57,772 nucleotides of DNA, from NCBI GenBank assembly GCA_020851115.1, contig JADZDJ010000146.1, positions 1 to 57,772 of the forward strand, in the 5' to 3' direction. The notes under the pieces are model-generated. The model ran no database searches and was not told the origin of the DNA. It saw only the letters and a program-made list of their open reading frames with translations. Source of the DNA: Pirellulales bacterium. GTDB lineage: Bacteria > Planctomycetota > Planctomycetia > Pirellulales > JADZDJ01. The position numbers and the translations under genes were made by a program. Shown here piece by piece: positions 30,661-36,520 of this stretch (position 1 is the first letter of the stretch; each line of letters opens with the position of its first letter).

Positions 30661-31443
30661 ATGTGTGTTGGTCAATGGCAACTTGAAGGACACGTTGCCA
30701 GACTCAAGCTCGACGACAGTGAAGTGTCGGTCGATGTCACGCGACCCAGTCACGGCCTGCTCTGGCAACCGGTTCCGAGTCGCAACGGCTTGCTCAATGT
30801 CTTGGGAATTGCGACCGGCGGCGACGAACCCTTGCCGTCATCTGTCATCGACCCGTTCGCGCGTGGTTGCGATCTTGTGGTGACCTATGCCGAACGCCAA
30901 CCGCGCCAGGTTCGCGCACAAGTCTACTGGAGGAATATTCCTCCAAGCGACTTTGCCTTGGAGAATCAAGCGTTGCACATTGTTGCCGCATTTGATCTGA
31001 TCCTGTCGGTCAACACCAGCGCGCTGGACGACGACCCGCAGTCTGTCGTCAGATCCGTCATTTCGCCCGCAATGGAAGTGTTCAATGTTCGCCTGGAACC
31101 TGGCCGTCGTCCGCGGGTCGAACCCTTGGTGGGAATCACTGCACGCCCCAGAAATGAAGCTAGCACGCCAACGGGAACTTTTCTCGTTCGACTGCCAAGT
31201 TGCGGGTTGAGTTACGTGGAAATCGTGCATCCGAGCGACTATCAATTAAGTGACGTCGTCAAAGGCGATGGCGCACCGCCGCGAATCCAATTGTCCCATC
31301 AACTGTTCACCCAACGATTGGAAAAGGGCGTGATCCTACGGGCTCGAGTGCGTGCGGCACTCGTTGAGCGCCAGCACGACGAAGCCGCGACGATTGCCGG
31401 CTTTGAGCGATTTTCGGCGCTCGAACCGCCGCTGACGGTGTAA
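30661..31443 (+). CDS. Hypothetical protein upstream of the SbcD/SbcC-like pair
   Basis: This 260-residue soluble protein without signal peptide or membrane helix has many short beta-strands, for example RPSHGLLWQPVPSRNGLLNV, RGCDLVVTYAERQPRQVRAQ and LHIVAAFDLILSVNTSALDD. Later segments GTFLVRLPSCGLSYVEIVHP and VILRARVRAALVERQHDE suggest two similar beta-sandwich halves. No catalytic motif or family is recognised. It lies 158 bases before the nuclease-like gene in the same direction and 186 bases after a terminator, so it may head that transcription unit. Function unknown. Confidence 0.65.
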   Translation: MCVGQWQLEGHVARLKLDDSEVSVDVTRPSHGLLWQPVPSRNGLLNVLGIATGGDEPLPSSVIDPFARGCDLVVTYAERQPRQVRAQVYWRNIPPSDFALENQALHIVAAFDLILSVNTSALDDDPQSVVRSVISPAMEVFNVRLEPGRRPRVEPLVGITARPRNEASTPTGTFLVRLPSCGLSYVEIVHPSDYQLSDVVKGDGAPPRIQLSHQLFTQRLEKGVILRARVRAALVERQHDEAATIAGFERFSALEPPLTV

Positions 31444-31601: not shown

Positions 31602-32861
31602 ATGTCGCAGCGGCCGTTTCGCTTTCTCCATGCTGCCGATCTGCATCTGGATGATCCGGTAGCAGGCTTGGCCGACATTCCGCCGCACCTTGTCGATTTG
31701 CTCGTCGATTGCCCGTTGGCGGCCGCTCGGCGAGTGTTTGATGCGGCGATTGAGCAGCACGTTGATTTTGTCGTACTGGCCGGCGATATCGTCGACTTGA
31801 ATCGCGCGGCGTCGCGCGAATTGACTTTCCTGGTTGAGCAATTCGAGCGACTGGCCCAGAAAAACATGGCCGTTTACTGGGCGGGCGGAGCAATTGATTC
31901 CGCCGATTGGCCGCCGAATTATTCGCTTCCTGGAAATGTGATGCACGCATCCCGGCTGCACGTTCAGCGACACCGCCACACGATCGACGGCCAGCCGATT
32001 TGCGAACTCGTTGGCCGCAGCCATGATCGGCATGGTTCACCAATGGCGCGCGAATTCGCCGGCTCGAGCGACGATCTGTTTTCGATCGCCGTGGTTCATG
32101 CCAAATTTGCCGCAGGCCTGGGTGATTTGGGAATTGAATATTGGGCGCTCGGCGGTTTGCACGGCCCCACGACCTTGCATCAATCGGCCCAATCACTCTC
32201 GCACTATCCAGGCTCGCCTCAAGGGCGCAATGCGAATGAAGCCGGCGCACATCTATGTACTCTCGTGCAGGTCGATGAGCAGCGTCAAGTTCGACTGTCG
32301 CCGATCGCCACCGACGTGATCCGCTGGGAATCGCCGGTCCTCGCGCTCGACGTCGCAGCCGATCGCACCAAATTGGAACGCGCACTGCACGATCGCACAG
32401 CACAAATGATCGCTGAATCTGGCGGAGCGACGCTGCTCATTGAATGGCGAGTTTCGTGCGATGGCGCTATTTTCAACGATCTGCGCCGCGGAAAGCTTAC
32501 GGCAGAATTGCTTGGGGCGCTGCGGCGGGAGTTTGGAAATCACTCGCCGGCAGCTTGGACCGTGGCCATTCAGCCGGAACTTCCCCCCGGATTGCCGATT
32601 CGAGGAGAGAATGAAGAGACTCTTCGAGGCGATTATCTAAGAGCGATTGCAGAGCTATTGCACGACAAGCCTATGACCGATAGTCATTCCATCCACCTGG
32701 ATGCCGATTCGCTACTGTCCGAAGACAACGCTGCCTGGCAACTTCCGCAGCTCAATCATCTAGCCGCCGCATTAGCTGCTCCCGCTCCGCGCCGGCGTGT
32801 CTTGCAGCAGGCCGTCTGGCTGGGAACCGATTTGCTAAGCCCCGAGGAGTCCGCACGATGA
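31602..32861 (+). CDS. SbcD/Mre11-like metallophosphoesterase (YhaO type) with altered motifs
   Basis: This 419-residue protein has the calcineurin-like phosphoesterase start RFLHAADLHLDDP (motif I at residues 8-18) and VVLAGDIVDLN (motif II, about 58-66). Motif III, normally GNHD, reads GGAIDS at 95-100, so the Asn and the catalytic His are absent. Motif IV keeps its His (VVHAKF, 164-169). Motif V, normally GH.H, reads GGLH (184-187). The YWALGG and HYPGSPQGRN segments are typical of the YhaO branch. The stop overlaps the next start by four bases (ATGA), so it is co-translated with the SbcC-like ATPase. It should form the nuclease half of a DNA repair complex, but the altered ligands question its nuclease activity. 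Confidence 0.85.
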   Translation: MSQRPFRFLHAADLHLDDPVAGLADIPPHLVDLLVDCPLAAARRVFDAAIEQHVDFVVLAGDIVDLNRAASRELTFLVEQFERLAQKNMAVYWAGGAIDSADWPPNYSLPGNVMHASRLHVQRHRHTIDGQPICELVGRSHDRHGSPMAREFAGSSDDLFSIAVVHAKFAAGLGDLGIEYWALGGLHGPTTLHQSAQSLSHYPGSPQGRNANEAGAHLCTLVQVDEQRQVRLSPIATDVIRWESPVLALDVAADRTKLERALHDRTAQMIAESGGATLLIEWRVSCDGAIFNDLRRGKLTAELLGALRREFGNHSPAAWTVAIQPELPPGLPIRGENEETLRGDYLRAIAELLHDKPMTDSHSIHLDADSLLSEDNAAWQLPQLNHLAAALAAPAPRRRVLQQAVWLGTDLLSPEESAR

Positions 32862-35800
32862 AGCTCACCGACATCCAAATCGATGGCTTCGGTGTATGGC
32901 AGGGGCTGGAGCTGCGCGATTTGTCGGATCGCTGCACCGTCTTCTACGGAGCAAACGAAGCCGGCAAGTCGACACTGCTGCAATTCCTGCGGGCGGCACT
33001 ATACGGATTTTCGCCCGCGCGACGGGCTCGCTATTTGCCGCCGGTGCGCGGCGGCATTGCGGGGGGAACGCTATCGGTCGTCGATCGCGCGGGCAAACGA
33101 TTTCGCATTTTTCGGCAAGACCATGCCGACCAGCCTTTGGGAGCCATTACCCTGGAAGCAGCCGATGGCACAACGAAGGCCAACTTCGATCTCCGCGGTT
33201 TGCTGCACGATGTGGATGAAACCACGTTCAATCACGTGTTCGCGGTCGGCCTGAGCGAAATCCAGGAACTGGGCACACTGACCGACATTGATGCGGCGAA
33301 ATGGATGTATTCGCTGACCGCCGGTCTCGACCGAGTTTCGCTTGCCGAAGTGGTAGGCGAACTGGAAACGTCTCGGACGCGAATTGCAGCGGTCGACGGA
33401 TCGCGCTGCGAAGTGTCCGATTTGGTCGCCCAGCGCGATCGGCTGGAACGCGAACTTTCGCAGCTCTCCCTGTTGCCGCGCGAACATGCACGGCTAGCAG
33501 CGCAACGCGACGACTGCGGTGCGTCGATTGCCGAAGCAGAGCGAGAATTGACTGCGAGAGAATCGGAGCATCGCGCTGCGGTGGCTACTGCGGCTGTGTA
33601 CGAATTGTTCCATCGTCGCACGTTGCTGGGCGCGCAAATCGCCGCGCTTTCGCCCCCCGAACCATGGCCCGCCGGTTCGCTGGAGCGGATGAATCGGCTT
33701 ACCGAGGCGATGAAACGTCGTCGTCGCCAATTCAAGAAGCTTTCTGTTCGACGCCAGCGATTGTCGTCCCAAGAGGCGAAGATCGCCGACAATGAATCGC
33801 TGTGTCGCCTGGCCCCGCGAGTCGCCGCGCTCGCCGAGCACGAGTCCTGGATTCTTTCGATCGAACAAGAACTAGGCGAAGCCCAAGCGACCGTGGCGCA
33901 GTGGACTGATCAGCAGCAATCGCAACAAGCGAAACTGAAAAACTCGGCCACCAATTCTACGATAACTTCAATGAATGTCGACGATCGCGGCTGGGCTATG
34001 CTGCGGTCACTCGGCGAACATTTGGTTAAAGCTCGCCGCCGTGCTAAAGCGGCCGATGCACAGCAAAGCTCGCACCGCGGCAATGCGGATTCGGCTCACC
34101 AACAGTTAGCATCGGCCCTCGCTTCGCGCGGCCAGCGCGATTTGACCGCGGCCATCGAAGCGGCGGGCCTTCGCGTCACGCAACTCCGCCGCCGTGTGCA
34201 GTTAGAAGATCGAATCGAACAGCTTACCGGCGCTAAAGCCGATTTGGAAAATGAAATTTCCATGCTGCACAATCGCCGCGTGATGCCGCCGTGGCAGATT
34301 TGGGGCCTTGGAGCGCTATTCGCATTAGGCGTGATAATGATCCTTGGCGGCTGGTTCTTTGCCTCGTGGGGCTGGACGACGATCATGGTGGGTGTCATCG
34401 CCCTGCTTGTCGCCGGCGGAACGAAAATCAGCCGCGACCTGACAATTTCCAAGCAGCTTGCCGAGGCCGAAAATCAAGTGCAGCTTGCCGTCACTCAGTT
34501 TGACGACGACACGGCTGAGCGAACTCAACTCGATCGCGCACTGCCAAAGCAGAGCAGCGATTGGGCTACCCAGCTCGCCGCCGCTCAGCGAGACTTAAGC
34601 CACCTCGAACAATTGCTGCCGCTGGATTTGCAAATCAAGTCGGCCGCGCAGTCGGCCAGCGACGCAGACCAACGCGCGCAACAAGCCAAGAAGCGGTATC
34701 GAAAGTCGCTGCGCCGCTGGCGGGCCGCGCTAGCCTCGCAAGGGCTGCCGACAGAACTCATGCCCACGCAAGTCCGCGAAATGTCCGTGGCCGGCAACCA
34801 ACTTCGCGGCGTTGCGGGGCGGCTCCAGGAAGCGCGCAGCGATTTCGACCGTCACCGTCGAGAACTCGTCGGTTTGGCGGCGCAAATTGAACAGGTCTTC
34901 CTCGCCGCCGGCATCACGCCGTCCTCGGAATCCGCCAGCCAGCGGTTGAAGCAATTGCGCAGCGAGCTAGCTGAGCACGAAACCCGCCGACAACAGCGCG
35001 AGACTTGCGAACGGCTGCGCCGAAAATTGCGGCGGCGACAATCGGTAATCCGGCGCCGCATCGAACGCGCGATCCGCCGTCGTAGACTGTTGCTGCGAGA
35101 TTGCCAGGTGACCGACGTGGCGACCTTTCGGCGACGTGCTGAAGAATCGTCGAAGCGGATTGCCCTCATCGCGGATCACGACGACGCCGGTCGAGAGATT
35201 GCCTCGCGGCTGGCGGGTGTGACAACCGAAGATGCGGCTGAAGCGATCCTTGCTGAAAAAACCGCTCCCGAAGTCGATGCGATCGTGTCGGCGGCAGCAC
35301 AGCGTTTGACCGAAGCGCGCGACCGGCATCGGCAGCTTTGCGAGCGCCGCGGCCAATTGAACGAACAAATCCGCGCGATTGCCGCCGATCGCCAGCCGGC
35401 CCTGAAACGATTGGAGTTGAATCAAATTGAGCGAAAGCTATTCGACGCTTTCGAGCGTTGGCAGGTGCTGACAATCACTCGTGGCGTACTTCTCTCCGTC
35501 AAAGCGGACTACGAGCGTAACCGCCAGCCCGAAACGCTGCGGGAAGCGTCGCAGTATTTGAGACAACTCACGCGTGGGCGCTACAATCGTGTATGGACGC
35601 GTTTCGGCGAAAATGTATTAACTGTGGATGACGCTCAAGGCCGGCCGCTGCCGGTCGATCGGCTCAGCCGTGGCACGCGCGAGCAGTTATTTCTGAGTTT
35701 GCGCCTGGCATTGGTCGGGTTATTTGCGCGGCAAGGCATCGAATTGCCGATGATCCTGGACGATGTGCTGGTCAATTTCGATTCCGATCGGGCGGCGGCA

Positions 35801-36520
35801 GCAGTGCGTGTGCTCAGAAAATTCGCCGACCGAGGACATCCATTGCTGATCTTCACCTGCCACGAGCACATCGCTCGAATGTTCAAACGAAAAGGCGTCG
35901 ATGTGCGCAGGTTGCCGGATCACGCCATTGGCGGGCGCGACCGTCCCTACGAAATCGAACCTGCTCCTGCACGCCGCGTTCGCCCGCGGCCGTCGAACGA
36001 CATTCCTTCCTCGGAGCCAGGGCCGCTTCCGCAGTTCGATTTACTTCCCAGGGAAGAGCATTTCATTGTCACGGCGGAAGCGCCGGTAGGACAGGTAGAA
36101 GTGCGATTGGTCGAGCCGCCCGAACCACTATCGACGATTGAAGCGGAGGTGGAATCTAATATCCAGCGGCTTGTTCCGGCGCCCCAAAGCGTTCGCAAGC
36201 CTAAACGCCGGCTCGACCCGCCACACCGCGCTCCCCGCTGGGCTGCCATCCGCCGCGGTTGGAATGCCGAGGAGTTCACAGGCGAATTGGACGACCAAAT
36301 CAATCCGCTTTGGATGCCTGATGCACGCTCGCAGGAAGAGGAAAACTCGCCCGATTCATCACCCCCTACCGCTGCTAACGCAAATCCTCCCATGCGCATC
36401 ATTCATTCTCGTCTTGGCCCACGCAGCTTCAAACTGCTCACCGACGAAGAATACGACGAGTCGCCGATCATTGCCGAGCTTCCGGACGACGATCTCGAAG
36501 CCGATAACAAGTTGGCGTAA
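32858..36520 (+). CDS. SbcC/Rad50-like ATPase of the YhaN type with mid-coil membrane hairpin
   Basis: This is a 1220-residue ABC-type ATPase. Walker A YGANEAGKSTLLQFL is at residues 30-44. Long coiled coils (LVAQRDRLERELSQLSL and many more) run to about residue 475. Two hydrophobic helices follow at about 480-520 (QIWGLGALFALGVIMILGG and TTIMVGVIALLVAG). A second coiled-coil arm leads to the signature LSRGTREQLFLSLRLAL near 936 and Walker B PMILDDVLVNFD near 963. Residues from about 1020 form a Pro/Arg/Glu-rich tail with no recognisable domain. The helical hairpin sits where Rad50 has its zinc hook, so the coil tip could insert in the membrane. Overlap with the upstream phosphoesterase shows the two work together, probably on DNA ends. 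Confidence 0.88.
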   Translation: MKLTDIQIDGFGVWQGLELRDLSDRCTVFYGANEAGKSTLLQFLRAALYGFSPARRARYLPPVRGGIAGGTLSVVDRAGKRFRIFRQDHADQPLGAITLEAADGTTKANFDLRGLLHDVDETTFNHVFAVGLSEIQELGTLTDIDAAKWMYSLTAGLDRVSLAEVVGELETSRTRIAAVDGSRCEVSDLVAQRDRLERELSQLSLLPREHARLAAQRDDCGASIAEAERELTARESEHRAAVATAAVYELFHRRTLLGAQIAALSPPEPWPAGSLERMNRLTEAMKRRRRQFKKLSVRRQRLSSQEAKIADNESLCRLAPRVAALAEHESWILSIEQELGEAQATVAQWTDQQQSQQAKLKNSATNSTITSMNVDDRGWAMLRSLGEHLVKARRRAKAADAQQSSHRGNADSAHQQLASALASRGQRDLTAAIEAAGLRVTQLRRRVQLEDRIEQLTGAKADLENEISMLHNRRVMPPWQIWGLGALFALGVIMILGGWFFASWGWTTIMVGVIALLVAGGTKISRDLTISKQLAEAENQVQLAVTQFDDDTAERTQLDRALPKQSSDWATQLAAAQRDLSHLEQLLPLDLQIKSAAQSASDADQRAQQAKKRYRKSLRRWRAALASQGLPTELMPTQVREMSVAGNQLRGVAGRLQEARSDFDRHRRELVGLAAQIEQVFLAAGITPSSESASQRLKQLRSELAEHETRRQQRETCERLRRKLRRRQSVIRRRIERAIRRRRLLLRDCQVTDVATFRRRAEESSKRIALIADHDDAGREIASRLAGVTTEDAAEAILAEKTAPEVDAIVSAAAQRLTEARDRHRQLCERRGQLNEQIRAIAADRQPALKRLELNQIERKLFDAFERWQVLTITRGVLLSVKADYERNRQPETLREASQYLRQLTRGRYNRVWTRFGENVLTVDDAQGRPLPVDRLSRGTREQLFLSLRLALVGLFARQGIELPMILDDVLVNFDSDRAAAAVRVLRKFADRGHPLLIFTCHEHIARMFKRKGVDVRRLPDHAIGGRDRPYEIEPAPARRVRPRPSNDIPSSEPGPLPQFDLLPREEHFIVTAEAPVGQVEVRLVEPPEPLSTIEAEVESNIQRLVPAPQSVRKPKRRLDPPHRAPRWAAIRRGWNAEEFTGELDDQINPLWMPDARSQEEENSPDSSPPTAANANPPMRIIHSRLGPRSFKLLTDEEYDESPIIAELPDDDLEADNKLA

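Follow-up and report, generated by a model that had tools for sequence, protein, structure and literature searches.

Probable conversion of an Mre11/SbcD-type nuclease into a structural or regulatory pseudoenzyme in Planctomycetia

We analyzed the gene at positions 31602-32861 (+ strand) of the window, that is, of the whole stretch of 57,772 nucleotides from a Pirellulales bacterium. Its product is probably the phosphoesterase-fold subunit of an ancient, second complex of the Mre11-Rad50 type in Planctomycetia, a nuclease which became a pseudoenzyme with a structural or regulatory role. We found what characterizes a pseudoenzyme: the fold was kept, the catalytic residues were gone and the gene was under purifying selection. 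From the residues lost we infer that the protein no longer acts as a nuclease.

The open reading frame is initiated by ATG and its 419 codons encode a phosphoesterase-type protein of 419 aa. Relatives were collected by querying genome contigs with a family alignment, which returned 80 loci, while a single-sequence query of the same contigs returned no match. Nearly all of these loci were titled as Pirellulales-type planctomycetes, and among them were Blastopirellula marina, Rhodopirellula solitaria, Stieleria sedimenti and Roseiconus nitratireducens. The features of the gene are as follows.

31602..32861, + strand: putative pseudo-Mre11/SbcD phosphoesterase-fold protein, 419 aa (Pfam Metallophos, AF2 model, PDB comparison)
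31638..31646, + strand: motif I DLHLD, D13 and H15 (presumed metal-1 ligands) kept (relatives: D 77/80, H 73/80)
31785..31787, + strand: motif II GDIVD, D62 (presumed bridging ligand) kept (relatives: D 69/80, N 10/80)
31890..31895, + strand: motif III GGAIDS, A97-I98 replacing the metal-2 Asn and the proton-donor His (relatives: N 1/80, H 0/80; profile alignment)
32097..32099, + strand: motif IV VVHAK, H166 (metal-2 ligand position) kept here (relatives: H 36/68, Y 19/68)
32100..32153, + strand: shortened motif IV-V loop without the conserved H..YAP stretch (motif IV His and last motif V His 21 residues apart; 34 in canonical proteins)
32154..32162, + strand: motif V ALGGLH, G185 (metal-2 His lost) and H187 (presumed metal-1 His kept) (relatives: G 74/80, H187 66/80)
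32622..32834, + strand: C-terminal helices, residues 341-411, with near-invariant L346, R347, L401 and G408, and L412 just after (AF2 model, conservation)

The 419-aa protein matched Pfam Metallophos above the cut-off (26.6 bits) and did not reach the SbcD equivalogs TIGR00619 (18.2 vs 77.65 bits) and NF041754 (20.2 vs 750 bits). The label "SbcD-like", given in a first-pass annotation of the same DNA, should be read at the level of the fold, where it is valid, the profile match to SbcD being weak. We compared an AF2 model built from 68 sequences (pLDDT 91.4, pTM 0.88) with the PDB. Mre11/SbcD structures were placed on top with Z of 25.0 to 21.4, while other phosphoesterases reached 18.4 at most. 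The best match was 4tug_A (Z 25.0, rmsd 4.1, 286 aligned), and the matches included 1ii7_A (Z 23.8, 273 aligned) and SbcD of E. coli, 4lty (Z 23.3, 286 aligned). In the model, the Mre11/SbcD fold is complete and covers the nuclease and capping domains (2-330). Helices 341-411 would, by position, be the counterpart of the Rad50-binding domain of Mre11, placed according to the general architecture of Mre11 (PMC3950489).

We scored eight active-site residues, of which seven bind metal in Mre11/DP1 and one donates the proton (PMC4996933); the literature confirms the seven ligands, and H85 of P. furiosus Mre11. Five of the eight were left in the window protein, including all four classical metal-1 ligands. 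Its motif III reads G96-A97-I98-D99 vs G-N-H-D, with the flanking G96 and D99 retained. Profile-profile alignment (hhalign) with the canonical paralogues, at E 1.3e-60, set GNHD over GaID and GHIH over GGlH, and misalignment as a cause of the apparent residue loss was thereby ruled out. The assignment of motifs was also checked by alignment against P. furiosus Mre11, where we take metal 1 to be held by D8, H10, D49 and H208, and metal 2 by D49, N84, H173 and H206. Following what is established for Mre11, D13, H15, D62 and H187 are presumably the metal-1 ligands, and the lost positions the metal-2 ligands and the acid. The first-pass annotation had read motifs I (DLHLD) and II (GDIVD) as kept and motifs III and V as GGAIDS and GGLH, and both the translation and the profile alignment bore this out. 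Like the Mre11/SbcD nucleases of bacteria and archaea, the protein has a phosphoesterase and a capping domain, C-terminal helices and an adjoining gene for a Rad50-type ATPase; unlike them, it has neither the motif-III Asn-His nor the first motif-V His, its IV-V loop is shorter and it stays below the SbcD cut-offs.

We further searched 392 planctomycete genomes and obtained 83 distinct homologues. The numbers of active-site residues were bimodal: 40 homologues had 8/8, 43 had 5/8 or fewer and none had 6 or 7. In these genomes, degenerate members were confined to the class of the window, where they occurred in its own order and outside it. One branch of the phosphoesterase tree divided the degenerate from the canonical rows (SH-aLRT 89), and the tree of the partner ATPase, an independent gene, grouped the degenerate loci likewise (SH-aLRT 98); deeper nodes were weakened by long branches. 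A fixed deletion also separated the two sets, motif IV and the last His of motif V being 34 residues apart in 16/16 canonical rows and 21-23 apart in the 68 degenerate ones (alignment-based count). These results confirmed that the residue loss marks a lineage-wide class, a possibility raised in the first-pass annotation, and not a single-sequence oddity. The annotation had also mentioned YWALGG-type sequences in other planctomycetes, which were found among the 80 loci, and had named absence of the GNHD His from all planctomycete homologues as support, which held for the degenerate class (0/80 named relatives; canonical paralogues keep GNHD). We rejected frameshift, sequencing error and chance, because the motif changes are clade-wide (motif-III His 0/80, first motif-V His 0/80).

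The canonical planctomycete paralogue (DYWALGHIH type, L036 and others) shares with the window gene full-length homology (hhalign E 1e-60) and the same order with an ATPase; it differs in having 8/8 active-site residues and, in this class, an ATPase without a transmembrane segment. We take this paralogue to be YhaO-like, and the pair presumably resembles YhaO-YhaN of Firmicutes. In family f5, a third paralogue group was observed, still more degenerate and with its own ATPase (L061, L062, L073, L079, L080, L094). That ATPase has a Walker A of the form G.NG[AS]GK and no transmembrane segment; in several cases Walker B lies near residue 640-680, and the C-terminal region is helix-hairpin-helix-like in appearance.

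The partner gene and the surroundings of the pair in the window are listed below.

32858..36520, + strand: Rad50/YhaN-like coiled-coil ABC-type ATPase, 1220 aa, translationally coupled (Pfam AAA_27 48.6 bits; ATGA overlap)
32948..32971, + strand: Walker A GANEAGKS of the ATPase (sequence)
34301..34420, + strand: predicted two-segment transmembrane region mid coiled coil, at the position of the Rad50 zinc hook (hydropathy; 65/65 readable Pirellulales partners)
35663..35770, + strand: ABC signature LSRGTREQLF and Walker B MILDDV of the ATPase (sequence)
30661..31443, + strand: upstream 260-aa gene of no known family, whose place in the system is doubtful (located before the pair in two same-family genomes only)

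At 32858, the stop of the 419-aa gene and the start codon of the ATPase share 4 nt (ATGA). The ATPase has the features of the Rad50/SbcC type, namely Walker A, signature, Walker B and a long middle region, so the coupling to an intact SbcC-like ATPase claimed earlier was upheld. The CxxC zinc hook was absent from the window ATPase and a hydrophobic segment was found in its place. Among the 80 loci, 76 had a Walker A ATPase directly downstream, and the remaining four stop at a contig edge. Signature and Walker B were present in 58 of 62 full-length partner ORFs, and all 65 readable partners had a hydrophobic, transmembrane-type segment mid-protein. The partners ranged from about 1050 to 1500 aa in length; the window ATPase (35950-36517) and its relatives carry a long, apparently disordered C-terminal tail past the ATPase head.

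ATPases of the canonical paralogues were without the hydrophobic segment in the same class (L032-L041, L071 and others) and had it in other planctomycete classes. Its occurrence in those other classes makes an ancestral origin of the segment probable, and the canonical paralogue may have turned soluble and the pseudo-nuclease version remained at the membrane.

In the comparison of neighbourhoods, the phosphoesterase and the ATPase were common to 74 loci. The upstream 260-aa gene, which lies 158 bp before the pair, had homologues in L193 and L194 (41% and 38% identity) and none beside the pair in the other fetched loci. It is very improbable that the pair is an SMC-like module that arose from Mre11-Rad50 and works against phages or plasmids. 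PADLOC gave a weak match of the ATPase (43.7 bits) to LmuB, which Lamassu defence combines with an LmuA effector. This match would suit such a module, but most of it fell in the coiled coil, within ATPase residues 531-1010, and the neighbourhoods held no third conserved gene. Moreover, the pair is near-universal in Pirellulales outside one family, and the clades of phosphoesterase and ATPase match. The pair is vertically inherited, and therefore a housekeeping role is favoured over defence.

We assessed the distribution of the gene by a hand tally in 197 genomes of the order that were at least 90% complete, with presence set at E <1e-70 for the degenerate profile and E <1e-60 for the canonical paralogue. 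The degenerate gene was present in approximately 138 genomes, the canonical paralogue in approximately 65 and both in approximately 62. Approximately 76 genomes, about half of the carriers, had the degenerate gene without the canonical paralogue. Over the cut-off, the genome of the window (98.8% complete) contained neither an SbcC nor a further SbcD or AAA_27 protein. In one family of the order, f108, the degenerate phosphoesterase was missing, and the canonical one was also missing in nearly all sampled genomes.

The dN/dS of close pairs was 0.01-0.15; the gene is under purifying selection; the first-pass annotation had deduced selection from the coupling to the ATPase. Near-invariant positions of the family included structural glycines, tryptophans and, at the C-terminus, L346, R347, L401, G408 and L412. 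The lost catalytic residues, together with the canonical paralogue present in the approximately 62 genomes with both genes, could suggest a decaying duplicate that is heading for loss and is held only by operon structure. Such decay is hardly credible and largely refuted by the low dN/dS, the many invariant positions, ORFs that are intact across Pirellulales and the sister order, and the approximately 76 genomes in which no canonical paralogue was present.

The pattern of loss within the active site was uneven. Of the presumed metal-1 ligands, D13 was retained in 77, H15 in 73, D62 in 69 and H187 in 66 of the 80 relatives, while at the metal-2 and acid positions the motif-III Asn was retained in 1, and the motif-III His and the first motif-V His in none. 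Three quarters of the Pirellulales retained the metal-1 ligands as a set, and their loss was joint as well. We analyzed co-loss on a tree of 80 rows built without the tested columns; it was a quick tree with few loss events, on which losses coincided on branches above chance (H15/D62, p ~0.0007; D62/H187, p ~0.005; H15/H187, p ~0.01). Losses of the motif-IV H166 did not coincide with metal-1 losses (p = 0.25 and 0.60). A stricter test of independent pairs had too few pairs to decide. In the family of the window itself, one relative has DHDH and another DHNQ. The half-site behaves as a unit in Pirellulales, kept or lost whole.

A complete metal-1 site exceeds the need of a pure scaffold, and it may signal residual or altered catalysis. 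We consider it unlikely that a one-metal or rebuilt site still hydrolyses a phosphoester, of DNA or another substrate, with a new acid or base residue. The unit-wise fate of the four ligands in Pirellulales and a motif IV that is either His or Tyr would suit such an enzyme. It would also be suited by residues which the family conserves as its own and which could be neighbours of the active site, namely W93 in VYW (67/68), D99 (66/68) and H217 (62/68; Lys in 15/16 canonical paralogues), the last being the candidate for a nearby His that would fill the metal site. Against it, the proton-donor His, required in Mre11 and DP1 (PMC4996933), is gone in 80/80, the metal-2 site is gone and the motif IV-V loop is shorter by ~12 residues. 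In the sister order of the class, the metal-1 site was intact in 0/31 degenerate rows, and therefore the shared function cannot depend on it. Several Pirellulales lineages have also lost the site and retained the gene pair.

The same dispensability of the site in several lineages makes it quite improbable, more so than one-metal hydrolysis, that the half-site is a sensor or switch in which binding of Mn or Fe alters how the subunit is coupled to the ATPase. Co-conservation of metal-1 ligands without catalytic residues would agree with a switch, as would the metal-linked rearrangement near the partner interface of VPS29, but VPS29 in fact binds its partner independently of metal (PMC3101248). 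The first-pass annotation had offered two options, a non-nucleolytic adaptor or a different metal geometry. They turn out to be compatible, since most Pirellulales members appear to keep one full metal site without the rest.

Conversion of a nuclease into a pseudoenzyme, which we prefer, would have precedents in the fate of the same fold elsewhere. VPS29 of retromer has the metallophosphoesterase fold and retains metal-binding residues without activity, serving as a scaffold (PMC3101248); unlike the window protein it is eukaryotic, has no Rad50-like partner and can still coordinate two metals. Eukaryotic DNA polymerase B-subunits are likewise inactivated phosphoesterases kept as structural subunits of a DNA machine (PMC4996933), in another complex and with another domain architecture.

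We propose that the pseudo-Mre11 would bind the ATPase through its conserved C-terminal helices, dimerise the ATPase heads and shape or gate access of DNA without cutting it. In Pirellulales, a single metal ion in the residual D-H-D-H site might steady the fold or a conformation. The coiled-coil apex of the ATPase, with its predicted insertion, would tie the complex to the membrane, and, by ATP-driven opening and closing of the heads, the complex could hold DNA close to the membrane, sense it or move it.

An open-access literature search, in which absence is weak evidence, found neither a report of a bacterial Mre11/SbcD without activity nor one that treats planctomycete SbcD. Whether Mre11 is required mainly for its nuclease activity or for clamping Rad50 structurally has long been asked, mostly with the help of point mutants. 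This lineage kept the complex and the ATPase and seems to have dropped the nuclease chemistry stepwise, with the steps legible in the sequences. It offers a natural separation-of-function system with cultured members, among them B. marina, R. solitaria and S. sedimenti. In summary, we tentatively suggest, as a reading that could well prove wrong, that a nuclease-free, membrane-anchored Mre11-Rad50-like machine may be a core complex of much of the class, and in many species the sole one of its family, working in DNA tethering, sensing or chromosome-membrane tasks, with a one-metal site that would be structural or regulatory and is kept or discarded as a unit.
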